Shown here piece by piece: positions 4,001 to 32,280 of a stretch of DNA of 64,000 nucleotides. This stretch comes from Pseudomonadota bacterium (GTDB lineage: Bacteria; Pseudomonadota; Gammaproteobacteria; Burkholderiales; Gallionellaceae). The notes below the pieces were generated by a model. It was not told where the DNA came from. It saw only the letters and a list, made by a program, of their open reading frames with translations, and did not search any database. The position numbers and the translations under genes were made by a program. The stretch covers positions 1 through 64,000 of the forward strand of contig JAJXTH010000008.1 in the NCBI GenBank assembly GCA_021783995.1. Reading direction: 5' to 3'. The stretch's first letter is position 1, and the number at the start of each line of letters is the position of its first letter.

Positions 4001-7000
4001 ATGTTGTGGATTGTAAGGATAGCACTGAGTCGCCCCTACACATTCATCGTGCTGGCGCTGCTGATCCTGATCATAGGCCCGCTGGTCTATGCGAACATGC
4101 GCACGGACATCTTTCCCGACATCAGGGTGCCCGTGGTGAGCGTGGTCTGGGCATACAACGGTTTGCCGCCGGACGACATGTCGGATCGCATCATCACCTA
4201 TTACGAGAGGCAGCTGTCCACTGCCGTCAACGACATAGAGCACATCGAGTCGCAGTCTTTGCCGGGCATGGGTGTAGTGAAGATATTCTTCCAGCCCGAC
4301 GTCAACATCAATGCAGCGGTGAGTCAGGTCACGGCGCTCTCGCAGACGGTGCTGAAGCGGCTGCCGCCCGGCATCACACCACCGCTGGTTCTGAGCTACA
4401 ACGCATCCAGCGTGCCGGTGATGCAGCTCGCACTGTCCAGCGATACCCTGCTTGACAACCAGCTGTTCGACCTGGCGAACAATTTCATACGCCCGATACT
4501 GGCCCAGGTGCGCGCGGCCATTCCCTCTCCCTATGGCGGAAAGAACCGACAGGTCCAGGTCGATCTCGACATGCAGGCACTGCGCTCCAAGGGGCTGACT
4601 CCCCAGGACGTGACTACGGCCATCCTGAAGCAGAATCTGATCATCCCGGCCGGAACGGAAAAGATAGGGCGTTATGAATTCAACGTGAAACTCAATTCCA
4701 GCCCCACCGTGCTGGATGAGCTAAACGACCTGCCGGTCAAGTCGGTAAAAGGATCTGCGATTCTCTTGCGCGATGTGGCGCATGTGAGGGACGGATATTC
4801 TCCGCAGCAGAACATGGTGAGGGTGAACGGAAGGCATTCTGTTCTGACAACCATACAGAAGAATGGTAGCGCCTCAACGCTCGACATCATCGAAAACGTC
4901 AAGGCGCTTTTGCCGCGGGTGATGGCGGGCTCGCCGCCCGGGCTGATCCTCAAGGTGGTGGGCGACCAGTCGGTATTCGTGAGGTCTGCAGTGGACGGCG
5001 TGATCCGCGAAGGCGTGATCGCAGCAGCGCTCACGGGGCTGATGATATTGCTCTTTCTAGGTAGCTGGCGCTCCACGCTGATCATCGCGATATCGATTCC
5101 GCTCGCAGTGCTCTCAGCAATCATCGCGCTGGCGGCAAGCGGGCAGACGCTCAACATCATGACGCTGGGCGGGCTTGCCCTTGCGGTCGGGATACTGGTC
5201 GACGATGCCACGGTCACGATAGAGAACATGAACTGGCATCTGGAGAGCGGCAAGCATGTGGAGGCTTCCATCATGGACGGTGCGCATCAGATAGTCGTGC
5301 CCGCGTTCGTGTCGCTGCTTTGCATCTGCATCGTATTCATCCCGATGTTCTTTCTCGAGGGTGTGGCGAAATATCTCTTCGTGCCGCTGGCCGAGGCGGT
5401 GATATTCTCCATGGTCTCGTCCTTCATCCTTTCGCGCACGCTGGTGCCCACGCTCGCCAAGTATCTTTTGCGAGCCCGTCTGCAGCACGGCGCAGAGGAA
5501 ACGCACTCGAAAAATCCGCTGGCAAGATTCCAGCGCGGATTCGAGGAAAGGTTCGGCCGGGTAAGGGAGGGCTACAAGGCGCTGCTGCATCTAGCGCTCT
5601 CTCGTCGCCATGGATTCATCGCACTGTTTCTGGGCTTCGTGCTGATTTCCTTCTCACTGGTCCCATGGCTTGGCCGCAATTTCTTTCCCGCCGTGGATGC
5701 GGGTGAGATCAAGCTGCACGTGCGCGCGCCTACCGGAACTAGGATAGAAGAGACTGCGCGACTCTGCGACGAGATAGAGAGGAGCATCAGGCGCGAGATA
5801 CCGCCTTCGGAGATCAAAAATATTATCGACAACATCGGGTTGCCGGTAAGCGGGATCAATCTCACCTACAGCAATTCGTCCCCGGTGGGGCCGGCCGATG
5901 CGGACATACTGATCTCGCTGAACCGCGGGCACAGGCCCACGGAACAATATGTGAAGTTGCTGCGCGCCCACCTCGAGGATGATTTCCCTGGCGCATCCTT
6001 TGCATTCCTGCCTGCGGACATCGTGAGCCAGATACTGAATTTCGGCATGCCGGCGCCGATCAATGTTCAGGTGGTTGGCTTCAATCGGGCGGTCAACCGG
6101 GAATATGCAGCAAAAATCTTGAGCCGCATCAGAAGGGTGTCGGGTCTGGTCGATGTGCGCATCCAGCAGGCGTTCAATCAGCCCGAACTCGATGTGAATG
6201 TGAACCGCACGAGGGCAAGAGAGCTTGGGCTTACCCAGAGCGATGTCGCGACCAATTTGCTGGTCGCGCTTTCTGGCAGTTTGCAGACAGCACCCAACTT
6301 CTGGGTCAATCCGGGCAACAAGGTTTCCTATCCGGTTGTCGTTCAGGTTCCGCAGTACCGTCTTGATACGCTGAACGAACTTCAGGACATTCCGGTATCG
6401 CAGGGGCAGGGAAAATCGCCGCAATCCGAACTGCTGGGTTCGCTTGCGACCGTCACCATGGGGCAGGGTGAGGCCGTGGTCTCGCACTACGACGTCGAGC
6501 CCACGATAGACATATATGGCTCCGCGCAGGGACGTGACCTGGGCGCTGTGGCAAGAGACATCAGGAAGATATTGCAGGATACAAAAATGGAAGTGCCCAG
6601 GGGTTCCTATGTCGTGATGCGCGGCCAGGTGAAGGCGATGGATGAATCGTACAGGGGGCTGCTGTTCGGCCTGCTGGGCGCGATCGTGCTGATCTATCTG
6701 CTGATCGTGGTCAACTTCCAGTCGTGGCTCGATCCATTCGTGATCATCACCGCGTTGCCCGCAGCCCTCGCAGGCATCGTCTGGATGCTTTTCCTGACAA
6801 ACACCACGCTGTCCGTGCCCGCGCTGATCGGCTCCATCATGTGCATGGGGGTGGCGACGGCAAACAGCATACTGGTGGTGAGCTTCGCGCGCGAGAGGAT
6901 GCGCGAGGGAGATAGCGGCATGACGGCGGCGCTCGAGGCGGGCTTCATCCGATTTCGTCCGGTGCTGATGACGGCCCTCGCGATGATGATAGGCATGGCA

Positions 7001-7174
7001 CCCATGGCGTTGGGTCTGGGCGAAGGCGGAGAGCAGAATGCGCCGCTTGGTCGCGCGGTGATAGGCGGTCTGGCCTTCGCCACGGTCGCGACACTGTTCT
7101 TCGTGCCTGTGGTGTTCAGCCTTGTGCACAAGGCGCACGAGCACGTTGCCGAGGTCATGCATCACCCTGTTTGA
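4001..7174 (+). CDS. RND efflux permease, first copy (AcrB/HAE1-like)
   Basis: This 1057-residue inner-membrane proton-driven pump has the RND layout: TM1 (about residues 11-29), a large periplasmic porter/docking loop, TM2-6, a second large loop and TM8-12. TM4 carries the Asp pair (Asp401-Asp402 in LVDDATV) that relays protons in AcrB. The TM10 lysine of AcrB (Lys940) is not present: the equivalent segment reads VATANSILVVSFARE with Ala954. It lacks the metal-site pattern expected of CusA, so export of drugs or organic compounds is more likely, but the substrate is unknown. It lies downstream of the two-component system, has no adaptor of its own directly adjacent, and has a close paralogue at 7783. 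Confidence 0.93.
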   Translation: MLWIVRIALSRPYTFIVLALLILIIGPLVYANMRTDIFPDIRVPVVSVVWAYNGLPPDDMSDRIITYYERQLSTAVNDIEHIESQSLPGMGVVKIFFQPDVNINAAVSQVTALSQTVLKRLPPGITPPLVLSYNASSVPVMQLALSSDTLLDNQLFDLANNFIRPILAQVRAAIPSPYGGKNRQVQVDLDMQALRSKGLTPQDVTTAILKQNLIIPAGTEKIGRYEFNVKLNSSPTVLDELNDLPVKSVKGSAILLRDVAHVRDGYSPQQNMVRVNGRHSVLTTIQKNGSASTLDIIENVKALLPRVMAGSPPGLILKVVGDQSVFVRSAVDGVIREGVIAAALTGLMILLFLGSWRSTLIIAISIPLAVLSAIIALAASGQTLNIMTLGGLALAVGILVDDATVTIENMNWHLESGKHVEASIMDGAHQIVVPAFVSLLCICIVFIPMFFLEGVAKYLFVPLAEAVIFSMVSSFILSRTLVPTLAKYLLRARLQHGAEETHSKNPLARFQRGFEERFGRVREGYKALLHLALSRRHGFIALFLGFVLISFSLVPWLGRNFFPAVDAGEIKLHVRAPTGTRIEETARLCDEIERSIRREIPPSEIKNIIDNIGLPVSGINLTYSNSSPVGPADADILISLNRGHRPTEQYVKLLRAHLEDDFPGASFAFLPADIVSQILNFGMPAPINVQVVGFNRAVNREYAAKILSRIRRVSGLVDVRIQQAFNQPELDVNVNRTRARELGLTQSDVATNLLVALSGSLQTAPNFWVNPGNKVSYPVVVQVPQYRLDTLNELQDIPVSQGQGKSPQSELLGSLATVTMGQGEAVVSHYDVEPTIDIYGSAQGRDLGAVARDIRKILQDTKMEVPRGSYVVMRGQVKAMDESYRGLLFGLLGAIVLIYLLIVVNFQSWLDPFVIITALPAALAGIVWMLFLTNTTLSVPALIGSIMCMGVATANSILVVSFARERMREGDSGMTAALEAGFIRFRPVLMTALAMMIGMAPMALGLGEGGEQNAPLGRAVIGGLAFATVATLFFVPVVFSLVHKAHEHVAEVMHHPV

Positions 7175-7782: not shown

Positions 7783-10700
7783 ATGTTATGGATTGTCCGG
7801 GTGGCGTTGAGCCGCCCCTATACGTTTATAGTGCTGGCGTTGCTGATTCTGATTCTGGGCCCTCTGGTTTACACGAACATGCGCACGGATATCTTCCCGG
7901 ATATCAAGGTTCCCGTGGTGAGCGCGGTCTGGACCTATAACGGCATGCCGCCGGGAGATATGTCTAGTCGCATCATCACCTTCTATGAAAGGCAGCTGAC
8001 GTCCTCGGTCAACGACATCGAGCACATCGAATCCCAGTCCCTGATGGGGGTTGCGATCGTCAAGATTTTCTTTCAGCCCAGTGTGGATATCAATGCCGCG
8101 GTGAGTCAGGTGACCGCGCTTTCCCAGACGGTGTTGAAGCGTCTGCCGCCCGGCATTACCCCGCCGCTGGTCCTGAGCTACAACGCAACCAGCGTGCCGG
8201 TATTGCAGCTGGCGCTTTCAAGCAAGACGCTGCTCGACAACCAGCTTTTCGATATCTCAAACAACTTCATCCGGCCCCAGCTGGCGGAGGTTGAAGGCGC
8301 TGCGGTACCTTCGCCTTATGGCGGAAAGAACAGGCAGACACAGGTCGATCTCGACATGCATGCATTGCGTTCCAAGGGGTTGACCCCGCAGGATGTCACT
8401 GATGCAATCCTGCGTCAGAGCTTGATCATCCCTTCCGGTACCGAGAAGATGGGCAGGTTCGAATACAACGTGATACTCAATGCGAGTCCGTTGGTGCTCG
8501 ATCAGTTGAACGACCTGCCGGTCAAGTCGGTGAGGGGTGCGACTGTGCTGCTTCGGGACGTTGCGCATGTCAGGGACGGTTTCTCGCCGCAGACGAACAT
8601 GGTGCGCGTCAATGGCGGGCATTCGGTGCTGACAACGATACAGAAGAACGGCAGCGCTTCGACGCTTGACATCATCGCCAAGGTCAAGGAGCTGATGCCG
8701 CGCATCGAGGCGGGTGCGCCTCCCGGACTCGTGGTCAAGATGGTGGGCGACCAGTCGATATTCGTGAAGGCCGCCGTGGACGGTGTTATCCGCGAGGGTG
8801 TGATCGCAGCGGGGCTGACCGGCATGATGATCCTGCTGTTCCTGGGCAGCTGGCGCTCCACACTGATCGTGACGATCTCGATTCCCTTGTCCATCCTTTC
8901 GGCGATCATCGCGCTCGCGGCAAGCGGGCAGACGCTCAACATCATGACGCTGGGAGGTCTCGCTCTCGCAGTGGGCGTGCTGGTCGACGAGGCGACCGTG
9001 ACCATAGAGAGTATCAACTGGCATCTGGAGCAGGGCAAGCATGTGGAGGCTTCCATCCTGGATGGTGCGAACCAGATCGTGGTGCCAGCCTTCGTTTCGC
9101 TGATTGCGATCTGTATCGTGTTCGTGCCCATGTTCTTCCTTACGGGCGTTCAGAAATATCTCTTCGTGCCGTTGGCCGAGGCGGTGATCTTCGCGATGAT
9201 CTCATCCTTCATCCTGTCCCGCACGCTGGTGCCGACACTCGCAAAATATCTGCTGCGCGCTCATGTGCAGCACGAGGAGGGTCATCATCCGGCGCCGTCG
9301 AAGAATCCTCTGGTCAGATTCCAGCACGGATTCGAGCGGGTCTTCAGCTGGGTGCGCGCAAACTACAAGGAACTATTGCTGCTCGCGTTGTCGCGTCGCA
9401 AGTCTTTCGTCATCGGATTTCTGGGGGTGGTTGCGATCACTTTTGCGCTCGTGCCTTTCCTGGGAAGGAATTTCTTCCCTGAGGTGGACGCGGGCCAGAT
9501 CAAGATGCATATCCGCGCCCAAACCGGCACGAGGCTGGAAGAGACCGCGCGCCTGGTCGACGAGATCGAGAATGACATCCGCGCCCGGATTCCTGCCAGC
9601 GAAGTCAGGAACGTGGTGGACAACATAGGCCTGCCTGTGAGCGGCGTGAACCTGACCTACAGTAACTCTTCTCCCATCGGTCCGGGGGATGCGGACATAC
9701 TGGTCTCGTTGAACGAGGGCCATCAGCCGACTGCGGATTATGTGCGCATGTTGAGAGAGAAGCTGAAGGATGATTTCCCGGGTGTATCGTTTGCGTTTCT
9801 GCCTGCCGATATCGTGAGTCAGATACTGAACTTCGGCATGCCGGCGCCCATTGATGTCCAGGTGATCGGGTTCAAGCGCAAGGAAAACCAGGTGTATGCT
9901 GCGGAGATCATGGAACGACTGAGGAAGGTCAGGGGGCTTGCAGACCTTCGTATCCAGCAGGCGTTCAATCAGCCGGAGATCCATGTGGATGTGGACCGCA
10001 CGCGCGCAAGGGAGCTTGGCATGACGCAGCACGACATCGCGACCAACATGCTGGTGTCGCTGGCGGGCAGTTTGCAGACGGCGCCTACATTCTGGGTGAA
10101 CCCGAGCAACGGCGTGTCCTATCCTCTGGTGGTGCAGACGCCGCAGTATCGCCTTGATACACTGAACGATCTCAGGAACATTCCTGTAGCGCCTGGCCAG
10201 AAGGCAAACCTGCCATCGCAACTGTTGGGTAGTGTTGCGGATATCAGCAGAAACCAGGGCGAGGCGGTCGTGTCGCATTACGACGTTCAGCCCACGATAG
10301 ACATATTCGGTGCGGCTCAGGATCGCGATCTTGGCAGCATCGCGAGCGACATCAACCAGATCGTCAAGGATACGGAGAAGGATGTGCCGAAGGGCTCCTT
10401 CGTCGTGGTGCGCGGCCAGGTCAAGGCGATGAGCGATTCCTACCGTCAGCTGCTTTTCGGTCTACTGGGTTCCGTCGTGCTGATTTACTTCCTGATCGTG
10501 GTGAACTTCCAGTCCTGGCTGGACCCCTTCGTGATCATCACGGGATTGCCGGCCGCACTCGCGGGCATCGTCTGGATGTTGTTCATCACGCATACGCCGC
10601 TATCGGTGCCTGCGCTGACAGGTGCGATCATGTGCATGGGTGTTGCGACGGCCAATAGTATTCTTGTGATCAGCTTTGCGCGAGAACGTCTGCAGCTGGG

Positions 10701-10980
10701 TGACAGCGGCATCACCGCCGCAGTCGAGGCGGGCTTCATCCGTTTCCGCCCGGTTTTGATGACCGCGCTTGCGATGATCATAGGCATGATCCCGATGTCG
10801 CTTGGCTTTGGCGACGGCGGTGAGCAGAATGCGCCGCTCGGACGTGCGGTGATCGGCGGCCTGCTATTTGCGACTGTGGCGACCCTGTTCTTCGTGCCGG
10901 TTGTCTTCAGCCTGGTACATGGCAAGAAAGGTAAAACTGACCCTACACCAGAGGGTACTTTGATAATGGAGCATGCATGA
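7783..10980 (+). CDS. RND efflux permease, second copy (AcrB/HAE1-like)
   Basis: The 1065-residue protein is closely similar to the permease at 4001 over its whole length and clearly arose by tandem duplication. The TM4 proton-relay pair is changed: Asp402 is kept but the second position is Glu403 (LVDEATV). As in the first copy, the TM10 Lys of AcrB is absent (VATANSILVISFARE). It is preceded by a GGAG site and about 170 bases of non-coding DNA, and its last codons overlap the adaptor gene (ATGATG at 10977). Adaptor and outer-membrane factor follow, so this copy is the direct partner of a tripartite pump. The first copy may join it as a heteromer, as known for MdtB/MdtC, but this is inference. 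Confidence 0.93.
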   Translation: MLWIVRVALSRPYTFIVLALLILILGPLVYTNMRTDIFPDIKVPVVSAVWTYNGMPPGDMSSRIITFYERQLTSSVNDIEHIESQSLMGVAIVKIFFQPSVDINAAVSQVTALSQTVLKRLPPGITPPLVLSYNATSVPVLQLALSSKTLLDNQLFDISNNFIRPQLAEVEGAAVPSPYGGKNRQTQVDLDMHALRSKGLTPQDVTDAILRQSLIIPSGTEKMGRFEYNVILNASPLVLDQLNDLPVKSVRGATVLLRDVAHVRDGFSPQTNMVRVNGGHSVLTTIQKNGSASTLDIIAKVKELMPRIEAGAPPGLVVKMVGDQSIFVKAAVDGVIREGVIAAGLTGMMILLFLGSWRSTLIVTISIPLSILSAIIALAASGQTLNIMTLGGLALAVGVLVDEATVTIESINWHLEQGKHVEASILDGANQIVVPAFVSLIAICIVFVPMFFLTGVQKYLFVPLAEAVIFAMISSFILSRTLVPTLAKYLLRAHVQHEEGHHPAPSKNPLVRFQHGFERVFSWVRANYKELLLLALSRRKSFVIGFLGVVAITFALVPFLGRNFFPEVDAGQIKMHIRAQTGTRLEETARLVDEIENDIRARIPASEVRNVVDNIGLPVSGVNLTYSNSSPIGPGDADILVSLNEGHQPTADYVRMLREKLKDDFPGVSFAFLPADIVSQILNFGMPAPIDVQVIGFKRKENQVYAAEIMERLRKVRGLADLRIQQAFNQPEIHVDVDRTRARELGMTQHDIATNMLVSLAGSLQTAPTFWVNPSNGVSYPLVVQTPQYRLDTLNDLRNIPVAPGQKANLPSQLLGSVADISRNQGEAVVSHYDVQPTIDIFGAAQDRDLGSIASDINQIVKDTEKDVPKGSFVVVRGQVKAMSDSYRQLLFGLLGSVVLIYFLIVVNFQSWLDPFVIITGLPAALAGIVWMLFITHTPLSVPALTGAIMCMGVATANSILVISFARERLQLGDSGITAAVEAGFIRFRPVLMTALAMIIGMIPMSLGFGDGGEQNAPLGRAVIGGLLFATVATLFFVPVVFSLVHGKKGKTDPTPEGTLIMEHA

Positions 10981-14143: not shown

Positions 14144-14376
14144 TGACTACTATTCTTCGTTTGTTAGTGAGGTGCTGATTTATTTGATTTTGTCGTTCCC
14201 GCGCAGGCGTGACCCGCTTTTACAAAGGCACGGGTTTCCCGCTTGATGAACCGACTAAGTATTGACTAGGCAATCAAGGCGCGATTGCAAAGTCACTACT
14301 TATTTGCGGGGAAGACAAATAAATCAGTGCCTCGCAGGCGCCCTTTGCAATTGATCCCCTGCGTTAGAAGTAGTCA
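14144..14376. repeat. Non-autonomous inverted-repeat element with REP-like core
   Basis: The 329-base gene-free gap after the cytochrome holds nested inverted repeats. TGACTACT at 14144-14151 mirrors AGTAGTCA at 14369-14376, and GAGGTGCTGATTTATTTG at 14169-14186 mirrors CAAATAAATCAGTGCCTC at 14316-14333 (16 of 18 positions). Between them lies a REP-like core (GTCGTTCCCGCGCAGGCGTG at 14192-14211). There is no open reading frame for a transposase, so this could be a MITE-like element or a degenerate remnant. The right end touches the start codon of the DUF2442 gene. Confidence 0.5.
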
Positions 14377-14627
14377 TGGAGTATGTAACTCGAGTTGTGC
14401 CGCGAGATGATTTTTCGCTGGAATTGTGGTTTAACACAGGGGATCATCGTCTGTTTGATGCTCGCCCTTATTTGGAGCGAGGTGCTTTTATCCGTCTAAA
14501 GGACATAAAATTATTCAAGCAGGCATACGTTGCATTGGTTACTGTGTGCTGGCCTGATCATTTGGATATCGCTCCTGAAACGCTTTTTGATCCATCCATC
14601 CCTGTTGAAATAAAGCTGCCTGCATAA
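14376..14627 (+). CDS. DUF2442 family protein
   Basis: The 83-residue protein has the DUF2442 pattern: an N-terminal strand-rich part (FSLELWFNTGDHRLFDARPYL), a central FIRLKDIKLFKQAYV and the C-terminal signature PDHLDIAPETLF. Function of the family is not established; members often lie beside small toxin-antitoxin-like genes. No good ribosome binding site precedes the ATG, and the start lies at the edge of the inverted-repeat element. A second member lies at 17784. Coding use is AT-richer than in the neighbours, consistent with acquisition. Confidence 0.78.
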   Translation: MEYVTRVVPRDDFSLELWFNTGDHRLFDARPYLERGAFIRLKDIKLFKQAYVALVTVCWPDHLDIAPETLFDPSIPVEIKLPA

Positions 14628-14645: not shown

Positions 14646-15272
14646 ATGTTTAATCTGGATCGCATCATCATCGAATTCGACAAGGGGCTGCGCACGCTTT
14701 TGGCTGATGCGCACAGCGTGCGTCCGCATCCGGATGCGGATGTGATGGAGTCGCCTCTCGACGAGAACGAAAAGAAACACGCGGCCGCGCTGATGCGCGT
14801 CAACCACAGCGGGGAGATCTGCGCGCAGGCCCTGTATCAGGGGCAGGCGCTGACCGCTAAAGATCCCGTCGTTCAGAAGAAATTGCAACAGGCGGCATTG
14901 GAGGAGACCGAGCATCTAGCCTGGACTGCGCACCGCGTGCAAGAACTAGGCGGTCATCTGAGCGCGCTGAATCCGCTCTGGTATACCGGATCGCTCGTGA
15001 TGGGTGCGTTTGCCGGCATGCTTGGAGACAAATGGAACCTGGGATTCTTGTCCGAGACCGAGCAGCAGGTGGGACGCCATCTGCAAAGCCATCTTGCAAG
15101 ACTGCCCGTTGAAGACGGCAAGAGCCGTGCGATCGTCGAGCAGATGTATACGGACGAGATCGGGCACTCAGAAATGGCGATGGCCCTGGGCGGCGCGGTC
15201 TTGCCAAAGCCAGCGAAGATGCTCATGAAGATCAATGGGAAGATCATGACCAGTGTGGCGTATATGGTATAG
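14646..15272 (+). CDS. coq7: Demethoxyubiquinone hydroxylase Coq7
   Basis: The 208-residue protein is a carboxylate-bridged di-iron monooxygenase of the ferritin-like superfamily that hydroxylates the ring in a late step of ubiquinone synthesis. Visible ligands include RVNHSGEICAQ (first Glu), EETEHLAW (Glu and His) and the C-terminal TDEIGHSEMA (Glu and His). Length matches the bacterial family (about 205-215). It has a near-perfect ribosome binding site (AAGGAGACATC-ATG). Presence indicates that ubiquinone is used as the respiratory quinone, relevant to the alternative complex III in this window. Confidence 0.94.
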   Translation: MFNLDRIIIEFDKGLRTLLADAHSVRPHPDADVMESPLDENEKKHAAALMRVNHSGEICAQALYQGQALTAKDPVVQKKLQQAALEETEHLAWTAHRVQELGGHLSALNPLWYTGSLVMGAFAGMLGDKWNLGFLSETEQQVGRHLQSHLARLPVEDGKSRAIVEQMYTDEIGHSEMAMALGGAVLPKPAKMLMKINGKIMTSVAYMV

Positions 15273-15287: not shown

Positions 15288-15578
15288 ATGAAACCATCGC
15301 AAACATTGGAGACACACCGTGTGCACATCCGGCGAATTGTGGCTGCACATCGCGCAAAGAATGCCCGAGTCTTCGGTTCGGTGATCCATGGCGAGGACAC
15401 CGAAGACAGCGATCTGGACATCCTCATCGACCCGACTCCAGAGACGACCTTGATGGATGTGGCGGCAATTCAGGTTGAACTGGAGAGACTTCTTAGAGTG
15501 ACTGTTGATGTGCTGACGCCAAAGGCCTTGCCTGAAAAATCCCGCTTTCTCCTCTGTGGTAAAAAAGCAACAGTATGA
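15288..15578 (+). CDS. Orphan MNT-type nucleotidyltransferase
   Basis: The 96-residue protein has the minimal nucleotidyltransferase motif: FGSVIHGEDTEDSDLDILI, i.e. GS-x(9)-D-x-D with both metal-binding Asp residues, followed by a third acidic strand (VDVLT). In HEPN/MNT toxin-antitoxin pairs the MNT protein neutralises an adjacent HEPN protein by AMPylation. No HEPN gene follows or precedes; the next 100 bases are the promoter and leader of the Cyc2-like gene. The tail FLLCGKKATV does not look like the usual MNT end, so the gene may be clipped or frameshifted at its 3' side. Confidence 0.8.
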   Translation: MKPSQTLETHRVHIRRIVAAHRAKNARVFGSVIHGEDTEDSDLDILIDPTPETTLMDVAAIQVELERLLRVTVDVLTPKALPEKSRFLLCGKKATV

Positions 15579-15588
15579 AGATTATTTT

Positions 15589-15616
15589 TTGACAGTGCCT
15601 CGCTTCCTTCTATACA
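15589..15616 (+). promoter_or_regulatory. Near-consensus sigma-70 promoter of the Cyc2-like gene
   Basis: A perfect -35 hexamer TTGACA (15589-15594) is followed after 16 bases by TATACA (15611-15616). Transcription would begin near 15623, giving a leader of about 55 bases and a TGAGGA ribosome binding site seven bases before the ATG at 15679. This is the strongest promoter match I see in the window and suggests high expression. Confidence 0.75.
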
Positions 15617-15678
15617 GTACGGCGAGTGGTGTCAAGGAGGGCTTGGCGTCGCTTCTAAACAAAAATGAGGACAAAATC

Positions 15679-17046
15679 ATGAAGAAAATCGTTCTATCTC
15701 TCGCAGGCGTTGTGGCCGCTGCGGCGTTCGCGCCTGAAGCTTCCGCTCTGCCAGTGTTCGCGCGTCAAACCGGCATGGCTTGTTCCGCGTGTCACTTCCA
15801 GCATTTCCCGCTGTTGAACGCTTTCGGTCGCGCATTCAAGGAAGGCGGCTTCACGATGATGGGCGCAGAGCCCAAGGTTGAAGGCGACAATCTGTCCATT
15901 CCCGCATACCTGAACATGGCAGTGCTGACCAGCATGGGCTATATCAAGAGCAATCAGACTGCTGATACATCAGGCGTTACCAAGAACTACGGCAACGGCG
16001 TATGGGGCGTTCCAGGCGTCGGTTTTGGCGGTCAAGGTGAGGCATCCCTGTTCGTTGGCGGCCATGTGAGCGATTTCGCTGGCTTCCTGTCCGAGATCAC
16101 TCTGGGCGGTACTGGCGCAGCGCTGGGTTCGGCCAAGCTGCCGATGCTGTATGACATGGGTTCCGCCAAGATCGGCGTGGTTCCATTCGCAACCAATGGC
16201 CAGGGCGCTTCCTACTCGATGGAAGTTGCGAACACCGGTGCGAACGCGATTCATTCGATCACCAACACGGTCGGTCCTAACGGCGAATTCATCAACGCGG
16301 TTTCCGCTCAGCAGTACATCGGTACAGCCACCAATGCATTGGGTCTGGGCTTCGTTGCAAACAGCGACATGGGCCTGATCAACATCACCAAGTTCCAGCA
16401 GACAGGAACCACAGCCGGGAACTATGGATCCTTGGGTTCTACCTATTCTCGCGTGCTGGGTACTTTCACCATGGGTGACTGGGATACTGCTGTCGGTGCA
16501 CAGAACTGGAGCGGTGCATCTATGTTTACACCTGGATATGGTATGAACGTAAATCCAGCGGATGGCACAACGGGTGCTTTTGCTGCGCAAACTGGCACCG
16601 CCACTATGCAAGCAACCAAGGCATGGGCACTTGACGGCCAGATGCAGGGTTCGCTGGGCGGCATGCCAGTCGGCTTCTACGCAAGCTATGCGCGCGCTCC
16701 CGGTGGACTGCAGAACGGCGAGATCAATACCTACAACAGCGGTACTCTGACTCGCAGCTCGTTCAACATCGATGCCGAACTGGGCGTGGTTCCTGAAGTC
16801 GCAACGATTGGTGCTGCTATCCGCCGTGGCAAGAGCGGTTTTGCCGATGCGGGTGGTAACAACACCAACGACAACGCGATCTTCCTGACTGCAACCTACA
16901 AGCTGCAGCAGAACATGCTGGCTCGCCTGTCGTATGTGAAGCAGAGCGGCAGCTACTGGGATCAGCAAAACATCGGCGGCGGCGGCACCAACTCGCAGGT
17001 ACTGGGCAGCCAGACTTACGAGCTGAACATGTACGTGCTGTTCTAA
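15679..17046 (+). CDS. cyc2: Cyc2-like outer-membrane cytochrome-porin fusion (candidate Fe(II) oxidase)
   Basis: The 455-residue precursor has a signal peptide cut after ASA (residue 23), then one heme c site, CSACH (Cys35, Cys38, His39), only 12 residues into the mature protein, embedded in ARQTGMACSACHFQHFP and LNAFGRAFKEGGFT. The remaining about 390 residues are strand-rich, Gly/Thr/Asn-rich, with no further CxxCH, and end in an aromatic C terminus (MYVLF) typical of outer-membrane barrels. This is the architecture of Cyc2, the Fe(II)-oxidising fused cytochrome-porin of acidophilic and neutrophilic iron oxidisers. An in-frame GTG at 15556 would place 41 unlikely residues before the signal peptide. 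The gene stands alone between a strong promoter and a terminator. Cyc2-like proteins also occur outside known iron oxidisers, so the substrate is inferred. Confidence 0.8.
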   Translation: MKKIVLSLAGVVAAAAFAPEASALPVFARQTGMACSACHFQHFPLLNAFGRAFKEGGFTMMGAEPKVEGDNLSIPAYLNMAVLTSMGYIKSNQTADTSGVTKNYGNGVWGVPGVGFGGQGEASLFVGGHVSDFAGFLSEITLGGTGAALGSAKLPMLYDMGSAKIGVVPFATNGQGASYSMEVANTGANAIHSITNTVGPNGEFINAVSAQQYIGTATNALGLGFVANSDMGLINITKFQQTGTTAGNYGSLGSTYSRVLGTFTMGDWDTAVGAQNWSGASMFTPGYGMNVNPADGTTGAFAAQTGTATMQATKAWALDGQMQGSLGGMPVGFYASYARAPGGLQNGEINTYNSGTLTRSSFNIDAELGVVPEVATIGAAIRRGKSGFADAGGNNTNDNAIFLTATYKLQQNMLARLSYVKQSGSYWDQQNIGGGGTNSQVLGSQTYELNMYVLF

Positions 17047-17088
17047 TCGATGCTTCCTCCGCTCGCGGAGGATTGATTCGATCTTGAG

Positions 17089-17118
17089 CGGGGAAGGCGT
17101 GAGCCTTCCCCGTTTTTT
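17089..17118 (+). terminator. Rho-independent terminator of the Cyc2-like gene
   Basis: A perfect 10-base stem CGGGGAAGGC / GCCTTCCCCG with a GTGA loop is followed by six T. A second small hairpin (CCTCCGC-TC-GCGGAGG) lies just upstream at 17057-17072. Confidence 0.93.
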
Positions 17119-17183: not shown

Positions 17184-17450
17184 ATGGCGATTGTGTTGGA
17201 TGGCGATATTGAAAAGGTAGTGCAAAAGTTGGCTGCATCGCGACATTGCACCGAGCAATTAATTATGGCGGAAGCCGTGCACCAATTGGCTGTGCGTGAA
17301 CAAATGCGTGGTAGTTTGTGGCAAGCGGGACATGCGGCCTGGCAACAATATCAGGAAACCGGTTTGCATCTGACCATGGAAGAAATGGATAGCTGGATGG
17401 CAAAACTTGAGGCAGGTGAAGATGCTGAACTGCCAAAATGCCACGTTTGA
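17184..17450 (+). CDS. Putative antitoxin (ribbon-helix-helix type)
   Basis: The 88-residue protein has a short strand (IVLDGDIEKVVQKLA) followed by helices (TEQLIMAEAVHQLAVREQM), the pattern of a ribbon-helix-helix DNA-binding antitoxin, and an acidic C-terminal tail suited to toxin binding (MDSWMAKLEAGEDAEL). It precedes and overlaps by 13 bases the RelE/ParE-like gene at 17438, the usual antitoxin-first order. It would repress its own operon and neutralise the toxin. Confidence 0.75.
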   Translation: MAIVLDGDIEKVVQKLAASRHCTEQLIMAEAVHQLAVREQMRGSLWQAGHAAWQQYQETGLHLTMEEMDSWMAKLEAGEDAELPKCHV

Positions 17451-17725
17451 TATGGTCGTATGCGGCGACGCTCGATTTGGCGCGTTTGCATCGGTTTCTC
17501 GTTCGTAAAAATGCTGATGCAGCCCGGCGCGCCATTCAGTCAATTCGCGTAGGTGTAAAGAACCTTGCGGATCAACCGCAGATAGGCCGGGTTGCCGAAA
17601 ACCAAAAGCCAGAGTTCCGCGAGTTATTGATTGGATTTGGCAATAGCGGTTACATCACTCTCTATCATTATGCAGATAATGTGATTACGATTTTGTCAGT
17701 GCGCCACCAAAAGGAAATTGAATAG
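17438..17725 (+). CDS. RelE/ParE-superfamily toxin
   Basis: The 95-residue protein has the RelE/ParE fold signature: WSYAATLDLARLHRFL at the N terminus, a basic helix (RAIQSIRVGVKNLADQP), IGRVAENQKPEFRELLIGFGNSGYITLYHY and the C-terminal strand TILSVRHQKE. Family members inhibit either translation by mRNA cleavage or DNA gyrase; the sequence alone does not decide between them. Together with the overlapping antitoxin it forms an apparently intact type II toxin-antitoxin module. Confidence 0.85.
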   Translation: MPRLIWSYAATLDLARLHRFLVRKNADAARRAIQSIRVGVKNLADQPQIGRVAENQKPEFRELLIGFGNSGYITLYHYADNVITILSVRHQKEIE

Positions 17726-17783
17726 GCCGTCATTTCCTGCAGGCGTGGGGTACATTTCCGCCGTTACAGTAAAGAGGTGAATG

Positions 17784-18038
17784 ATGGAATGGGACGTGGT
17801 TGATTTGAAAACCGGAGATGACTGGAATATGCAGGTGCGCTTTGCCGACGGTACCGAGGGAAGTGTCAAGTTTGAGCAGAGCCATCTTTATGGGGTGTTC
17901 GAATCCTTGAAAGATCCGAACTTCTTTTTCAGGGCATATCTGGATTCGGGTGTTGTGACTTGGCCTGGCGATATTGATATTGCGCCAGATGCGATGTATC
18001 GCGAAATCAAGCGGCATGGCCTGTGGGTGCTGCGTTAA
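17784..18038 (+). CDS. DUF2442 family protein, second member
   Basis: The 84-residue protein shares the family signature with the gene at 14376: YGVFESLKDPNFFFRAYLDSG and PGDIDIAPDAMY. Two consecutive ATG codons exist (17781 and 17784); AGAGG at 17773-17777 is better spaced for the second. It directly follows the toxin-antitoxin pair. Function is unknown. Confidence 0.78.
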   Translation: MEWDVVDLKTGDDWNMQVRFADGTEGSVKFEQSHLYGVFESLKDPNFFFRAYLDSGVVTWPGDIDIAPDAMYREIKRHGLWVLR

Positions 18039-18120: not shown

Positions 18121-19188
18121 ATGTCCTCTGCGCTGGTTCACAATCTGATACGTCCGGAACTGCTCGCGCTGCATGCCTATCATGTGCCGGAAAGCGGCGG
18201 CATGATCAAGCTCGATGCGATGGAGAACCCATACCATCTGCCGCAGTTTTTGAAGGACGAAATTGCGACCATCGTGACGTCCTGCGAGATCAACCGCTAT
18301 CCGGATCCCGATCCCCGGGAATTGAAGGAAAGGATACGTCAGATCGAAGCCGTTCCAGAGGGGTGCGATGTGCTCCTTGGCAACGGTTCCGACGAGCTGA
18401 TACAGATACTCGCGATGGCTCTTAACAGGCCGGGTGCAGTGCTGCTCTCTGTCGAGCCATCCTTCGTGATGTACAGGATGATCGCGACCTTTGTCGGCAT
18501 GCGCCATGTGGGCGTGCCGTTGTCGCCCGATTTTTCGCTCGACATCGAAGCCACCCTCGATGCGATACGACGCGAGCGCCCTGCGCTTGTTTTTCTGGCC
18601 TACCCCAACAACCCGACAGGCAATCTTTTTTCCGCCGATCATGTCAGACGCATCATAGAGGCATCGCCGGGGCTGGTCGTGATCGACGAGGCGTATTACG
18701 CGTTTGCCAGCGACAGCTTCATGAAGCATGTGGCGGACTACCCGAATCTGTTGGTGATGCGCACCTTTTCAAAGCTGGGCATGGCAGGATTGCGGCTGGG
18801 TTTTCTTGCGGGCCGGAGCGAATGGCTCGATGAGCTTGAAAAGCTGCGTTTGCCTTATAATGTCGGCGTTTTGCCGCAGCGGGTGGCGAAGGCGTTGCTC
18901 GACAATCACGGCGTGCTTTTGCAGCAGGCGGACCAAATCAGGAAGGATCGCATGATCCTGCAGCGTGAATTGCAGACGCTGGTGGAAGTCTATCCGTCGG
19001 AAGCGAACTTCCTTCTTTTCAGGATGGAGAATGCGGCGGCTGTTTTCGATAAGCTCAAGGCGCGCGGCATGCTGATCAAGAATCTGGGCAATGCCCATCC
19101 GATGCTGAAGGACTGCCTGCGCGTGACGGTGGGCACGCCGCTCGAATGCCAGAAATTCATCGAGGCATTGCAGGAGAGTATTGTTTGA
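18121..19188 (+). CDS. hisC: Histidinol-phosphate aminotransferase
   Basis: The 355-residue fold-type I PLP enzyme converts imidazole acetol-phosphate to histidinol phosphate. It shows [10 protein letters not shown] near the N terminus, GNGSDELI, the AYPNNPTGN motif, VIDEAYYAF and the PLP-lysine in [15 protein letters not shown]. Length is typical. No Shine-Dalgarno is visible before the ATG. It heads a his gene run that lacks hisG and hisD, which in many betaproteobacteria lie just upstream. Confidence 0.95.
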
Positions 19189-19219
19189 ACAGGCGTCATT
19201 GGTGAAACTACTAGCCAAT

Positions 19220-19280
19220 CGACTAAGCAAGCGAGCTTGCAAGTCGTTGGTTATCCCGCGAAGGCGGGAATCCGGCTCAA
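19220..19280. repeat. REP-like element between hisC and hisB
   Basis: The hisC-hisB gap contains a stem (GACTAAGCAAGC / GCTTGCAAGTC) followed by TTATCCCGCGAAGGCGGGAA and TCCGG, matching the REP-like family at 1669, 14192 and 51920. It interrupts an otherwise tightly packed operon. Confidence 0.65.
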
Positions 19281-19297
19281 TATGGCTAAGGAACAAC

Positions 19298-19885
19298 ATG
19301 CGTAGCGCGAAAGTCACACGTAACACACTTGAAACGCAGATCAGCGTCGATCTGAATCTGGATGGGACCGGCAAGGCAGGCTTCGAGACCGGCCTGCCGT
19401 TTCTCGATCACATGCTGGACCAGGTCGCGCGCCACGGCCTTTTGGACATGAACATCGTCGCGAAGGGCGATCTGCACATCGATGCGCACCACACCGTCGA
19501 GGATCTGGGCATCACGCTGGGCCAGGCATTCACTCAGGCAGTGGGCGACAAGCAGGGGCTTTCCCGTTATGGCCACGCCTATGTGCCGCTCGATGAGGCG
19601 CTTTCGCGCGTGGTGCTGGATCTCTCGGGTCGGCCCGGGCTCGTGTTCAACTGCGAATTCGTGCGCGCCAGCATAGGCGGTTTCGACGTGGACCTGTTCC
19701 ACGAGTTCTTCCAGGGCTTCGTCAACCATGCGCTCGTCACGCTGCACATCGACAACCTGGCTGGCAGCAATGCGCACCATCAGGCGGAGACGATCTTCAA
19801 GGCGTTCGGCCGCGCATTGCGCATGGCATTGATGGTCGATCCAGGAATGGCGGGCATGATGCCATCGACCAAGGGCGTTCTGTAA
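19298..19885 (+). CDS. hisB: Imidazoleglycerol-phosphate dehydratase
   Basis: The 195-residue monofunctional HisB dehydrates IGP to imidazole acetol-phosphate. It has the metal-binding His clusters of the family ([37 protein letters not shown]). Start at 19298 ([10 protein letters not shown]) follows AAGGAAC and gives the standard length; the longer frame from 19181 runs through a repeat and is rejected. It overlaps hisH by one base. Confidence 0.95.
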
Positions 19886-20517
19886 TGGTCGATATCGCCA
19901 TCGTCGATTACGGCATGGGCAATCTGCGCTCGGTCGAGCAGGCGGTGCGCCATGTCGCTGAAGGCCTTTCGGTCAGCGTGACCGACGATGCGGATGTGAT
20001 TGGAAAAGCGGTGCGCGTGGTGTTCCCGGGGCAGGGAGCGATGCCGGACTGCATGCGCGAGCTGGACGCTCGCGGCCTGCGCGTAGCAGTGCTCAGGGCC
20101 GCAAAGGAAAAGCCTTTCCTGGGTATCTGCATCGGGCTTCAGATGCTTTTCGAGAAGAGCGCGGAAGGGAACGTCGAAGGGCTCGGCGTCCTGAAGGGCG
20201 AGGTGTTGCGCTTCGATGGAAGCATGAAGGACGCGCATGGCAACAGGCTCAAGGTGCCGCACATGGGATGGAACGAGGTGCATCATCTTGATCATCCGCT
20301 GTGGGAAGGCATAGGGCAGGATGCGCGCTTCTATTATGTGCACAGCTATTACGTCTCCCCCGAAGATCGTTCTCTCGTTCAGGCGACGAGCGAATACCCC
20401 CATCCTTTCGTTTGCGCGGTGGCGCGCGACAATCTTTTCGCGGTGCAGTTTCATCCGGAGAAAAGCCAGGCGGCAGGGCTCAAGCTGCTGCATAACTTTG
20501 TACATTGGAACCCCTAA
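19885..20517 (+). CDS. hisH: Imidazole glycerol phosphate synthase, glutaminase subunit
   Basis: The 210-residue class I glutamine amidotransferase has the nucleophile in FLGICIGLQMLF, the oxyanion region DYGMGNLRSVE and the His/Glu pair in QFHPEKSQ. It supplies ammonia to HisF. TAATG overlap with hisB suggests coupled translation. Confidence 0.95.
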   Translation: MVDIAIVDYGMGNLRSVEQAVRHVAEGLSVSVTDDADVIGKAVRVVFPGQGAMPDCMRELDARGLRVAVLRAAKEKPFLGICIGLQMLFEKSAEGNVEGLGVLKGEVLRFDGSMKDAHGNRLKVPHMGWNEVHHLDHPLWEGIGQDARFYYVHSYYVSPEDRSLVQATSEYPHPFVCAVARDNLFAVQFHPEKSQAAGLKLLHNFVHWNP

Positions 20518-20526
20518 ATACTTGCC

Positions 20527-21273
20527 ATGCTGATAATTCCTGCGATTGATTTGAAAGACGGTCATTGTGTGCGCCTGAAACAGGGCGTGATGGAAGACTC
20601 AACCGTGTTTTCCGAGGATCCCGCGGCGACCGCGCGACACTGGCTCGCGCAGGGTGCGAAGCGATTGCACCTGGTAGATCTGAACGGCGCATTTGCCGGC
20701 AAGCCCAGGAACGAATCTGCGGTGCGCAGCATCATCGAGGCGGTGGGAGACGAGTTGCCGGTGCAGCTGGGCGGCGGCATACGCGATCTGGAGACGATAG
20801 AGCGCTATCTCGATCTCGGTGTGACCTACATCATCGTCGGCACCGCGGCGGTCAAGGTGCCGGGCTTTCTGCACGAGGCATGCGACGCATTCCCCGGTCA
20901 CATCATGGTGGGGCTGGATGCCAAGGGTGGCAAGGTGGCGGTCAACGGATGGTCCAAGCTCACCGGCCACGATGTGTCGGATCTCGCAAAGCGCTTCGAG
21001 GATTACGGGGTCGAGGCGATCATCTACACCGACATAGGGCGTGATGGCATGCTCACCGGCGTGAACATAGAGGCGACGGTGGAGCTTGCGCGCCCGCTGC
21101 ATGTGCCGGTGATCGCCAGCGGCGGCATCACCAATCTCGACGACGTGCGCAACCTCTGCCAGGTGGAAAGCGAGGGCATCACCGGCGCGATCACGGGCCG
21201 CGCGATCTACGAGGGCACGCTGGACTTTGCCGCGGCGCAGGCGCTCGCGGACGCGCTCTCGCCGCGACTCTAG
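20527..21273 (+). CDS. hisA: ProFAR isomerase (HisA)
   Basis: The 248-residue TIM barrel has the catalytic N-terminal [14 protein letters not shown], the phosphate-binding QLGGGIRD and the C-terminal Asp in [10 protein letters not shown] plus ASGGI. It isomerises the aminoaldose intermediate of histidine synthesis. Located nine bases after hisH in the operon. Confidence 0.95.
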
Positions 21274-21276
21274 ATC

Positions 21277-22035
21277 ATGCTGGCCAAACGCATCATACCC
21301 TGCCTCGACGTGACCGCGGGCCGCGTGGTCAAGGGCGTCAGCTTCGTATCCCTGCGCGATGCAGGAGACCCGGTAGAGATCGCCCGTCGCTACGACGAGC
21401 AGGGGGCAGACGAGCTGACCTTCCTGGATATTACCGCGAGCTCGGACGACAGGGGCATCATCTTCCGCATCATAGAAGAGGTTGCGTCCCAGGTTTTCAT
21501 ACCGCTTACGGTGGGCGGCGGCGTGCGCGAAGTTGCTGATGTGCGCAACCTGCTCAATGCGGGCGCGGACAAGGTCAGCATCAATACTTCGGCCGTGACC
21601 AATCCGCAACTGGTCGCCGATGCATCGGCGCGCTTCGGCTCGCAGTGCATCGTGGTGGCTATAGACGCAAAGCAGGTGGATGACGGCAGATGGGAAGTGT
21701 TCACTCACGGAGGCCGCAAGGCAACGGGGCTGGATGCGGTGGAGTGGGCAAGAAAGATGCAGAGTCTTGGCGCAGGAGAAATCCTTCTGACCAGCATGGA
21801 TCGGGACGGGCAGAAGAACGGCTTCGATCTGGCATTGACAAGGCAGGTGACAGACGCGCTGGAGATCCCGGTGATCGCAAGCGGCGGCGTGGGCAACCTG
21901 CAGCATCTCGCAGACGGAGTGCTGCAGGGTGGGGCGGACGCGGTTCTCGCCGCGAGCATATTCCATTTCGGCGAATACACGGTCGAAGAGGCAAAGCGAT
22001 ACATGGCTTCCCAGGGCATAGAGGTGAGGCTGTGA
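21277..22035 (+). CDS. hisF: Imidazole glycerol phosphate synthase, cyclase subunit
   Basis: The 252-residue TIM barrel carries the catalytic Asp residues in [14 protein letters not shown] and [13 protein letters not shown] and the phosphate motifs TVGGGVR and ASGGVG. It partners HisH. The end overlaps the hisI start (GTGA). Confidence 0.95.
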
Positions 22036-28453: not shown

Positions 28454-29173
28454 ATGCATCGTTATTTACGTTTTCCTTTCATGCTGGCGAGCTTTTTGGT
28501 GGCTGTTGCTTGTCATGCAGCCACTGAACAGACGCTTACCACTGAGGACGATCTGGGGCCTCAAGTTCAGCAGCCCATCGAGTTTCCTCATTACCGCCAT
28601 GCCGGGAATCGCAATCCGGTCGATCCGACCAACAGCGATCCGACCAAGGGCGGGATGGAGATCAACTGTCAGTACTGCCACACCTATGCTAGGCGCAGCC
28701 TGACTGCGGGGATTCCGCCGCTGCAGAAGTGCGTGGGTTGTCATCAGAACATTCCTACCGTGCGAGACAAGCCGCGCATCGTCGAGCTCTTCAAGTACTG
28801 GGATGCGAAGAAGGCGATTCCGTGGAAGAAGGTGCACGACTTGCCCGACTTCGTGCGCTTCAATCACGAGCGGCACATCAAGCGTTTCATAGAGCAGCAG
28901 GGGCGCCCCGTTCAGGAGGTCTGCGGATACTGCCACGGCCAGGTGAAGGAGATGGTCACTGCGCGGCGTCAGAAACCCATCACCATGGGTTGGTGCGTCA
29001 GCTGCCACATGAAGGAGCATGTCGTCGTGGCCAAGGGTGCGATACCTGAAGGCGGCACGCCGATTGGCAAGCAGGACTACTGGTATACCTTCCAGAAGCC
29101 CGCGGAGACCAGGAATGCGGAAGGCGAGCTGACTGCCAAGGGCCCCAACGATTGCTGGCTGTGCCACAAGTGA
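28454..29173 (+). CDS. actA: Alternative complex III subunit ActA, pentaheme cytochrome c
   Basis: The 239-residue precursor has a signal peptide (about residues 1-22, ending CHA) and five heme c motifs in order: CQYCH, CVGCH, CGYCH, CVSCH and CWLCH. This is the heme count of ActA in characterised complexes. The start at 28454 follows GGGAG with eight-base spacing. ActA is the periplasmic electron hub that passes electrons between the Fe-S chain of ActB and the monoheme ActE. The frame ends in TGATG, one base into a possible upstream start of the next gene. Confidence 0.94.
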   Translation: MHRYLRFPFMLASFLVAVACHAATEQTLTTEDDLGPQVQQPIEFPHYRHAGNRNPVDPTNSDPTKGGMEINCQYCHTYARRSLTAGIPPLQKCVGCHQNIPTVRDKPRIVELFKYWDAKKAIPWKKVHDLPDFVRFNHERHIKRFIEQQGRPVQEVCGYCHGQVKEMVTARRQKPITMGWCVSCHMKEHVVVAKGAIPEGGTPIGKQDYWYTFQKPAETRNAEGELTAKGPNDCWLCHK

Positions 29174-29199
29174 TGAAAAAATTGAACAGAGAGGCTGTG

Positions 29200-31422: not shown

Positions 31423-31425
31423 GTC

Positions 31426-32280
31426 ATGTCTGTCACCAATTTGCTGAACAACTGGGCTGCGGTCCGCCATTTTCACCCGATCGACGACAAGCCTCACGAT
31501 CCTTACAAGTGGGCGATGGCGATAGATCTGGATGCATGCATAGGCTGCAATGCATGCGCGGTTGCCTGTTATGCGGAAAACAACCTGCCAGTCGTGGGGC
31601 GCGAGAAGTTCCAGCACGGCCAGGCCATGCACTGGATGCGCATAGAGCGCTACTGGAATGAGGACAGCAGGGAGTTTCCTGATCAGGGGGCGGAATTTTT
31701 GCCGATGATGTGTCAGCAGTGCGAGGCCGCACCCTGCGAGACGGTCTGTCCGGTGGGTGCGACCAACCACACGCAGGATGGGTTGAACTCCCAGATATAC
31801 AACCGCTGCATAGGATCGCGCTACTGCTCTGCGAACTGTCCGTACAAGGTCCGTTACTTCAACTGGTATGACTATCCGACGACGGACAATGTCTGGCCGG
31901 CCGAAATGAATTACCAGCTGAATCCCGACGTGACGGTGCGTGGCAAGGGCGTGATGGAGAAATGCACTTTCTGCGTTCAGCGCCTGCGCGCTGCAGAGGT
32001 GACTGCCAAGGGCGAAGGACGCATCGTGCGCGAAGGGGAGGTGCAAACGGCCTGCCAGCAGTCCTGCCCGACCAATGCGATCTCTTTCGGCAATCTGGTC
32101 GATCCGGAGTCGCGTGTTTACAAGCAGTGGAAGGCGCAGCAGGTCGACCTTGCGAAGGACGAGCAGGAAAAGGACAAGAGGGAAGGTGGAACAGATTTGC
32201 GCGGCTACCGGATATTCGAAGATCTGCGTCCCTATCCTTCGGTTATGTATCTGGAACGCGTGCGCGAGAGCGCTGTTTAG
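31426..32280 (+). CDS. actB2: Alternative complex III subunit ActB2, 4-cluster ferredoxin
   Basis: The 284-residue protein has four Fe-S motifs: CIGCNACAVAC, CQQCEAAPCETVCP, CIGSRYCSANCP and CTFC...CQQSCP. In the third motif the usual second Cys is Ser (CIGSRYC), the pattern that leaves room for a [3Fe-4S] instead of [4Fe-4S] cluster, matching the 3+1 cluster content known for ActB. Cysteines are shared between paired motifs as in NrfC/PsrB proteins. It lies three bases after actB1. Confidence 0.93.
   Translation: MSVTNLLNNWAAVRHFHPIDDKPHDPYKWAMAIDLDACIGCNACAVACYAENNLPVVGREKFQHGQAMHWMRIERYWNEDSREFPDQGAEFLPMMCQQCEAAPCETVCPVGATNHTQDGLNSQIYNRCIGSRYCSANCPYKVRYFNWYDYPTTDNVWPAEMNYQLNPDVTVRGKGVMEKCTFCVQRLRAAEVTAKGEGRIVREGEVQTACQQSCPTNAISFGNLVDPESRVYKQWKAQQVDLAKDEQEKDKREGGTDLRGYRIFEDLRPYPSVMYLERVRESAV

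Follow-up and report, generated by a model that had tools for sequence, protein, structure and literature searches.

Cyc2, a monoheme cytochrome fused to an outer-membrane porin, is a widely used marker gene of biological iron oxidation, and its expression is a main read-out in the field. In print, Cluster 1 comprises the Cyc2 proteins of iron-oxidising Gallionellaceae and of Zetaproteobacteria (PMC7029218, PMC10734462), and OprP and OprO are named as structural matches for one of its members, Cyc2-PV1 of Mariprofundus ferrooxydans (PMC8406198). Sideroxydans lithotrophicus ES-1 has three tandem copies (Slit_0263-0265), of which cyc2_1 is among the most expressed genes and stays high under all conditions tested (PMC8788666). 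At the RNA level, 5' stem-loops such as that of Escherichia coli ompA protect mRNA (PMC7509114). We studied a cyc2 gene in a 64,000-nucleotide stretch of Gallionellaceae DNA (hereafter, the window), which belongs to contig C25 of a 2.18-Mb assembly (94.6% complete). The gene lies between coq7 and the his genes, at a chromosomal slot that it shares with relatives. The gene itself is ordinary for such bacteria. Its predicted leader RNA is conserved and covaries as a folded structure, and we found no description of it. The likely explanation of the whole locus is that the sole Cyc2 found in this genome is a Cluster-1-type Fe(II) oxidase, expressed alone from an mRNA with a hairpin near its predicted 5' end, and exchanged at the shared slot.

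The window protein resembles Cyc2-PV1 in its signal peptide, motif, single heme, 16-stranded porin, and similar length. It differs in belonging to a Gallionella sub-clade of 28 sequences and in having slightly fewer acidic residues, and it is known here from sequence. The ES-1 genes are of the same family, and the divergence among these copies is as great as that among the lineages alternating at the slot in Gallionella, whereas the window genome has a single copy, between coq7 and his. The features of the gene, all on the forward strand, are as follows.

15589..15616, forward: sigma-70-type promoter TTGACA-N16-TATACA, read from the sequence and conserved upstream of slot cyc2 genes in four Cyc2 lineages
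15624..15654, forward: 5' leader hairpin of 13 bp with a loop of 5, from its fold, covariation, and covariance model match
15679..17046, forward: cyc2, encoding a 455-aa protein in which a monoheme cytochrome is joined to an outer-membrane porin of 16 strands, start codon ATG at 15679
15679..15747, forward: signal peptide of 23 codons, from the sequence, with the cleavage site placed by eye
15748..15840, forward: cytochrome domain with the Cyc2 consensus, ALPVFARQT-CSACH-FQHF-PLL, in which ALPVFARQT starts one codon earlier, at A23
17089..17118, forward: intrinsic terminator, 10-bp stem followed by a T-run, from sequence and fold

Conservation and covariation of the cyc2 leader hairpin

The hairpin (-14.6 kcal/mol) lies near the predicted 5' end of the mRNA, the start being deduced from the -10 box, from which 7 nt separate the stem. 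In an alignment of 30 leaders, 87% of the cells pair. The covariation score of 0.330 was reached by none of 500 shuffles (mean 0.203), and versions of the structure slid along the alignment scored at most 0.081; the shuffle test is inflated by the relatedness of the sequences, which affects the slid control less. Cells changed on both sides of the stem numbered 23, against 7.2 in shuffles (0 of 500 reached this value), and RNAalifold recovered 9 of 12 pairs from the same alignment. In the Gallionella leaders the stem covaries around a purine-rich loop that is retained as GGGAGG, GGAGGG, or GGGGGG. Eight Sideroxydans-type leaders have a different hairpin at the same place, 97% paired, with other stem letters and without the purine loop; their covariation is weak (0.361 versus 0.293), and the two pairs changed on both sides were reached by 90 of 500 shuffles. 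Among 65 cyc2 leaders with a recognisable promoter, 33 fold with a z-score below -1.5. Two observations weaken the case for an RNA structure: the single-sequence fold of the window hairpin is just moderately unusual (z = -2.2), and two of the five covariation measures were not rare in shuffled alignments, with 40 of 500 attaining the 6 pairs and 43 of 500 the 19 pair types.

Could the inverted repeat instead be a DNA operator, a dyad bound by a regulator? It stands directly downstream of the -10 box, where repressors bind, but its stem letters change on both sides with pairing kept (the 23 cells mentioned above), which a sequence-specific operator would not easily allow, and the Sideroxydans-type leaders have other letters in the stem. 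We regard the operator as improbable, and the RNA structure remains the reading that we adopt.

Searches of Rfam with window positions 15500-15800, on both strands, gave no match at E ≤ 10. The literature search, which used few wordings and had subscription papers and preprints outside its scope, found no description of a cyc2 leader or of control of the cyc2 mRNA. At the leader place, four divergent paralogues (L047-L050) have no hairpin. These belong to a set of divergent Gallionella Cyc2 paralogues (L046-L050) that break the published motif, with PSFSRQ (PAFSRQ in L050) in place of PXFARQ. Separately, the probable Zetaproteobacteria cyc2 leaders (L077, L081, L083, L087, L094, L099) share a stretch close to TGGCTC-CACG-GAGTCA, which could form a hairpin of its own about 40 nt upstream of the start codon.

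The leader is nearly confined to cyc2

We built a covariance model from the -10 box and the hairpin, counting matches with E < 1e-7 as strong. It matches the window at 15611-15661 (E = 1.9e-13), the sole match in that genome at E ≤ 0.5. The 76 genomes of the genus gave 41 strong matches, one per genome, plus 13 weak ones; 29 of the 41 came from the training set of the model. In all 30 strong loci that were returned, a cyc2 start lies 15-90 nt past the match. The other 11 comprise three that were fetched and precede cyc2 (G716, G733, G723), six placed directly before cyc2 coordinates (G720, G721, G730, G030, G007, G023), one cut by the contig end (G725), and one before a porin (G004). Outside the training set there are thus 12 strong matches, 10 before cyc2 (at least three of them close kin of training sequences), 1 before the porin, and 1 cut. 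At three weak matches that were fetched, cyc2 is absent. Among 300 genomes of the order, just five, all Gallionella, pass the threshold; five others match weakly (E from 5e-4 to 0.027), against about 15 below 0.05 to be expected were the per-genome E-values exact. The model found no match in the four members of the family outside the genus that have cyc2.

The confinement has its exceptions, which count against a strict association: the strong match in G004 precedes a general porin (named from its sequence), and 35 of the 76 genus genomes lack a strong match, including carriers of Cyc2 from the wider clade of the window (G005, G011, G021, G025, G029). At the G004 locus (L310, G004:C40, around 9497-9546), a cyc2-type promoter and leader stand before the porin-like gene. 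This Gallionella has no close Cyc2 match, so a different outer-membrane barrel gene may have come to share the leader or to take it over. We also observed a Gallionella-type cyc2 with its leader (L176) on a contig that bears the label Candidatus Moranbacteria, for which faulty binning is the probable cause.

What the hairpin does can be approached by analogy. The 5'-terminal stem-loop of E. coli ompA stabilises its mRNA. The window hairpin is similarly placed near the 5' end (predicted here) of the mRNA of an outer-membrane barrel gene, with the difference that it is known from conservation, covariation, and a predicted start, and matches no Rfam family. Its position, the high expression of ES-1 cyc2_1, and the known protective 5' stem-loops suggest that it would protect the mRNA against 5'-end-dependent decay and thereby help keep Cyc2 abundant.

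Alternatively, the hairpin may be a regulatory RNA rather than a plain stabiliser: a small-RNA target, a metal-responsive element, or a target of the CsrA type, whose motif is a GGA loop. The purine-rich loop kept in Gallionella while the stem covaries, and the near exclusivity of the leader to cyc2, both favour regulation; against it, the Sideroxydans-type leaders have in common with these just a hairpin at that place, not the loop, and Rfam gave no match. On balance this is possible, if rather doubtful, and we keep to the protective hairpin. Whatever its role, the conserved leader is a direct handle for reporter tests and for recognising cyc2 control regions in metagenome-assembled genomes (MAGs).

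Promoter and terminator of an independently transcribed gene

The original prediction, made from the sequence of the window alone, described cyc2 as monocistronic, with its own TTGACA-16-TATACA promoter in front and a terminator with a perfect 10-bp stem behind; both elements are conserved across relatives, in agreement with that description. The promoter (TTGACA at 15589-15594, a 16-nt spacer, TATACA at 15611-15616) has 10 of the 12 consensus bases. A generic promoter scanner gave an overlapping reading with an 18-nt spacer, at one site versus 1.6 expected by chance; at this chance level the scanner alone is no proof of a promoter, and the support is comparative. A site with at least 10 of 12 bases precedes 16 of 18 slot cyc2 genes, compared with 13 of 400 shuffled upstream regions (one genome, G027, was left out of the upstream comparisons because its contig begins too near). 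For 3 of these 16 genes, an 18-nt spacer gives the highest score. The terminator, which the generic scanner missed, consists of a perfect 10-bp stem (17089-17112) with the loop GTGA and six T up to 17118; its fold (-25.5 kcal/mol, z = -6.2) was matched by none of 200 shuffles. A stem of at least 6 bp with at least four T in the next 8 bases follows 17 of the 18 slot copies. The gene would thus be transcribed alone, from a strong conserved promoter.

A Cyc2 of the probable Cluster 1 type

Cleavage of the signal peptide after A23, placed by eye, makes Cys35 of CSACH residue 12 of the mature protein, where the original prediction had put the heme site. The protein has a single CXXCH, a hydrophobic N-terminus, and 455 aa (above the 365 aa used as criterion). 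Both parts of the Cyc2 consensus are present: AXPXFAR[QK][TY] before the heme site (ALPVFARQT) and PXL four residues after it (FQHF-PLL). Pfam gave no match for the protein at E ≤ 1, and NCBIfam chance matches only, far below the cut-off. A structure model shows the porin part as a 16-stranded outer-membrane barrel, closed as had been expected; the sequence set used for the structure (A2) comprised the window protein and the 65 complete frames from loci L105-L184 that differed from every protein of an earlier locus. OprP/OprO and OmpF/OmpC share the 16-stranded barrel, without a heme domain and at 10-12% identity. Sequence search found no solved Cyc2 structure at E ≤ 10.

At E ≤ 0.01, a cyc2 match occurs in 32 of 36 same-genus relatives of a first sample, often two or more times. 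Among the best 80 of 263 confirmed loci from a scan of named genomes, 47 are labelled Gallionella, Sideroxydans, Ferrigenium, Gallionellaceae, or Gallionellales, and the remainder have broader or other labels. The Cyc2 tree has 153 sequences, after removal of 2 near-duplicates from 155. The window protein groups with those of the MAGs DBS2-1.bin99 and BP5.bin129 and of G030 (4 sequences, support 99), within a clade A of 28 (support 99) that also holds Candidatus Gallionella acididurans. Clade B (25 sequences) is sister to A, the two together making 53 (support 99). Next out come clade C, with 13 sequences (Gallionella, LL2.bin39, family f37), and then smaller groups labelled Myxococcota and Nitrospirota. 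Clade D has 39 sequences, the canonical copies of Gallionella, Sideroxydans, and Ferrigenium. One clade of 117 (support 97) takes in A, B, C, D, and smaller groups, with 27 sequences of family f79, very probably Zetaproteobacteria, beside it. The window protein would belong to Cluster 1, since in print the Cyc2 of iron-oxidising Gallionellaceae and of Zetaproteobacteria make up that cluster. Motif, barrel, and phylogeny agree on a Cyc2-type cytochrome-porin, as originally predicted; the grouping with non-iron porin-cytochromes and the open barrel named beforehand as contrary outcomes were not what we found.

Some results speak against this assignment. The heme domain was modelled poorly, with ten-residue means of the predicted local distance difference test (pLDDT) of 30-56 across residues 1-80. 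Cluster 1 membership follows from our own tree, drawn without known Mariprofundus, Acidithiobacillus, or Leptospirillum sequences. Family f37 nests among the Gallionella Cyc2; a 2026 paper assigns all its Ferrovaceae Cyc2 to Cluster 2, with which our tree conflicts if f37 is Ferrovaceae, as suspected. An Acidithiobacillus anchor for the tree was sought and given up: none of 398 genomes of a phylum sample passed the rusticyanin cut-off, and four loci with distant homologues had no recognisable rus operon.

By analogy with the relatives studied by Keffer et al., dissolved Fe2+ would enter the barrel and donate an electron to the one heme, which plugs the barrel towards the periplasm; the electron would then pass through periplasmic cytochromes to the respiratory chain, and the cell would fix CO2 with it. 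The source genome has RuBisCO. Our search there for iron-oxidase candidates covered Cyc2, MtrB/PioB, and rusticyanin; Cyc2 was found once, and MtrB/PioB was not found in the assembly, whose incompleteness may hide a gene. We consider it quite unlikely that this cytochrome-porin serves another donor or general electron exchange instead of Fe(II). Function beyond the few characterised Cyc2 is inferred, additional functions are considered possible (Keffer et al., PMC8406198), and the most expressed copy of ES-1 stays high on thiosulfate too (PMC8788666). The window protein, however, nests among Gallionellaceae Cyc2, proteins classed with the iron oxidases of Cluster 1 in the pangenome paper (PMC10734462), and it is the sole candidate that the three-protein search found in a RuBisCO-bearing genome. 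Iron oxidation thus remains the preferred function.

Two further ideas were dropped. The window protein has 5.6% acidic residues (D+E), against a mean of 7.4% in 36 canonical sequences, which might have suggested an acid-adapted surface; the value is low in clades A, B, and C alike (means 5.8-6.0%), so it tracks the clade and not a known habitat. A plasmid or phage origin was rejected as well: two plasmids match residues 27-60 alone, and no phage matches.

The coq7-cyc2-his slot

The surroundings of cyc2 in the window are as follows.

14376-14627 and 17781-18038: DUF2442 genes, by family match
14646..15272, forward: coq7, upstream border gene of the slot, by COQ7 family match
17184..17725, forward: small antitoxin-like open reading frame and ParE toxin, inserted locally downstream of cyc2 and ahead of hisC; ParE (17438-17725) by family match
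18121..22035, forward: hisC-hisB-hisH-hisA-hisF, downstream border of the slot, names assigned from sequences alone

Searching with the window hisC gave a match in 73 of the 76 genomes of the genus, and in those 73 loci, the window included, we read the region upstream of hisC. A cyc2 start lies within about 7 kb upstream of hisC in 19 of them, with coq7 seen before cyc2 in 12 of the 19, and 22 of the 73 are cut shorter than 7 kb by contig ends. The order coq7-cyc2-hisC is common to Gallionella whose Cyc2 are only 36-45% identical. A tree was made from the five His proteins of the 66 loci that have at least four of them (7 of 73 were dropped for fewer). The nearest relatives on this tree whose slot is readable (G030, G720, G721, G009) all have cyc2 there, and these four carry the Cyc2 nearest to that of the window; a fifth, G719, is cut at hisC. 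In 4 of the 19 occupied slots the ParE pair separates cyc2 from hisC, and the DUF2442 copies vary, which makes these genes local insertions.

Several points temper the notion of a general slot. At least 7 kb before hisC is free of cyc2 in 32 of the 73 loci. All occupied slots except that of G730 (18 of 19) fall inside one weakly supported part of the His tree, with 27 rows (66/39). In G032 (L212, G032:C49) coq7 adjoins hisC with no cyc2 between them, and cyc2 lies on another contig; on the His tree this genome is near the A-type hosts without being among them.

The original prediction saw in this accessory-looking stretch a hint of gain by transfer. The DUF2442 and ParE neighbours are real, but an accessory island is not supported, the slot order being shared. 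A recent arrival of cyc2 together with these neighbours could point to the toxin, DUF2442, and nucleotidyltransferase genes that flank it, to the 32 genus loci without cyc2 at the slot, and to the apparently empty coq7-hisC site of G032. Such an arrival is nevertheless very improbable: the gene order recurs in other Gallionella, four of the four nearest readable relatives are occupied and carry the nearest Cyc2, and G032 lies outside the clade of A-type hosts. Synteny thus disfavours a recent island transfer, even with slot occupancy varying in the genus, and the claim of gain with an accessory island was abandoned. Transfer may instead have taken the form of replacement in place, as the lineage of the slot Cyc2 does not match that of the genes on either side.

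Probable exchange of Cyc2 lineages at the slot

The 19 slot Cyc2 proteins represent four deep lineages, six of them from A, six from B, one from C, and six from D, and their distribution on the His tree needs at least 6 changes. The sister hosts G714 and G018 (100/93) carry A and C. Habitat is unlikely to explain this difference, since both appear to be MAGs of one acid mine drainage site (PMC8357290). Approximately unbiased (AU) tests reject joining the Cyc2 of G714/G018 (p = 8e-5) and of G704/G706 (p = 7e-5), two pairs chosen by their places on the His tree, at a point when the Cyc2 tree was already known. On the His data, the test rejects uniting the A-type hosts (p = 3e-7).

We compared gene segments in 17 pairs selected by hand. 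In G714/G018, G704/G706, and G003/G010, the leaders are 85-98% identical and the signal peptides 91-100%, against 72-74% for the barrels, where about 70% looks like the floor of the comparison. In control pairs, leader and barrel lie closer together, at 95% versus 90% (G734/G014) and 88% versus 84% (G000/G030). For the 3' tail, no clear agreement with the host is seen. Across 18 slot genomes, every segment gave weak Mantel correlations (with hisC and hisB, respectively: leader 0.48 and 0.20; barrel 0.20 and 0.12; tail 0.21 and 0.05), so the case for swapping depends on the AU tests and the named pairs. From the tree conflict and these few pairs we infer that the coding part at the slot has been exchanged among deep Cyc2 lineages, whereas the control elements and the signal peptide (promoter and leader being the former) have mostly remained in the host lineage.

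Other data pull the opposite way. The control pair G010/G014 does not fit (leader 84%, barrel 86%), and fast evolution of the porin barrel may exaggerate its contrast with the flanks. Tandem copies of mixed lineage exist (L130, L120, L122, L037), in the order A-C in Candidatus Gallionella acididurans and LL2.bin39, C-A in Chersky.3_41, and D-A in G011, so differential loss could take the place of recombination. The mismatch between Cyc2 lineage and flanks would then reflect old tandem arrays thinned by loss, a credible account that we would place somewhat short of an even prospect. Besides the A-C, C-A, and D-A pairs, the three tandem copies of ES-1, 37-50% identical (PMC8788666), speak for it. 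Yet G714/G018, G704/G706, and G003/G010, all pairs of neighbouring hosts, have a leader and a signal peptide in line with the host and a barrel that is not, which loss of whole genes from an array would not easily produce.

Taking exchange by recombination as the preferred reading, we venture, as a tentative proposal for part of Gallionella, that a single chromosomal cyc2 cassette might be kept, whose resident control region (promoter, structured RNA leader, and signal peptide) would drive interchangeable Cyc2 barrels swapped by recombination. The leader might then be a new family of cis-acting RNA, present in a single strong copy per genome and nearly always found at cyc2, setting the level of the iron oxidase after transcription and possibly responding to a global RNA-binding regulator or to iron. 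The slot analysis points to one reason why, within Gallionella, Cyc2 trees conflict with host trees without any copy reaching a new locus, and it warns against taking the lineage of a Cyc2 to stand for that of its host.

Wider genome context

The original prediction set cyc2 apart from any respiratory operon. The gene does precede the his operon, but the same window holds genes of an alternative complex III at 29152-35791 (molybdopterin subunit, NrfD, ActD, cytochrome c, and, downstream, a membrane protein without a Pfam match); with these genes at about 29-36 kb, the neighbourhood of cyc2 is not far from respiration. Elsewhere in the window, two neighbouring RND-type pump genes (4001-7174 and 7783-10980) have very similar N-termini, and before them lie a response regulator/sensor kinase pair and a general porin (306-1667).
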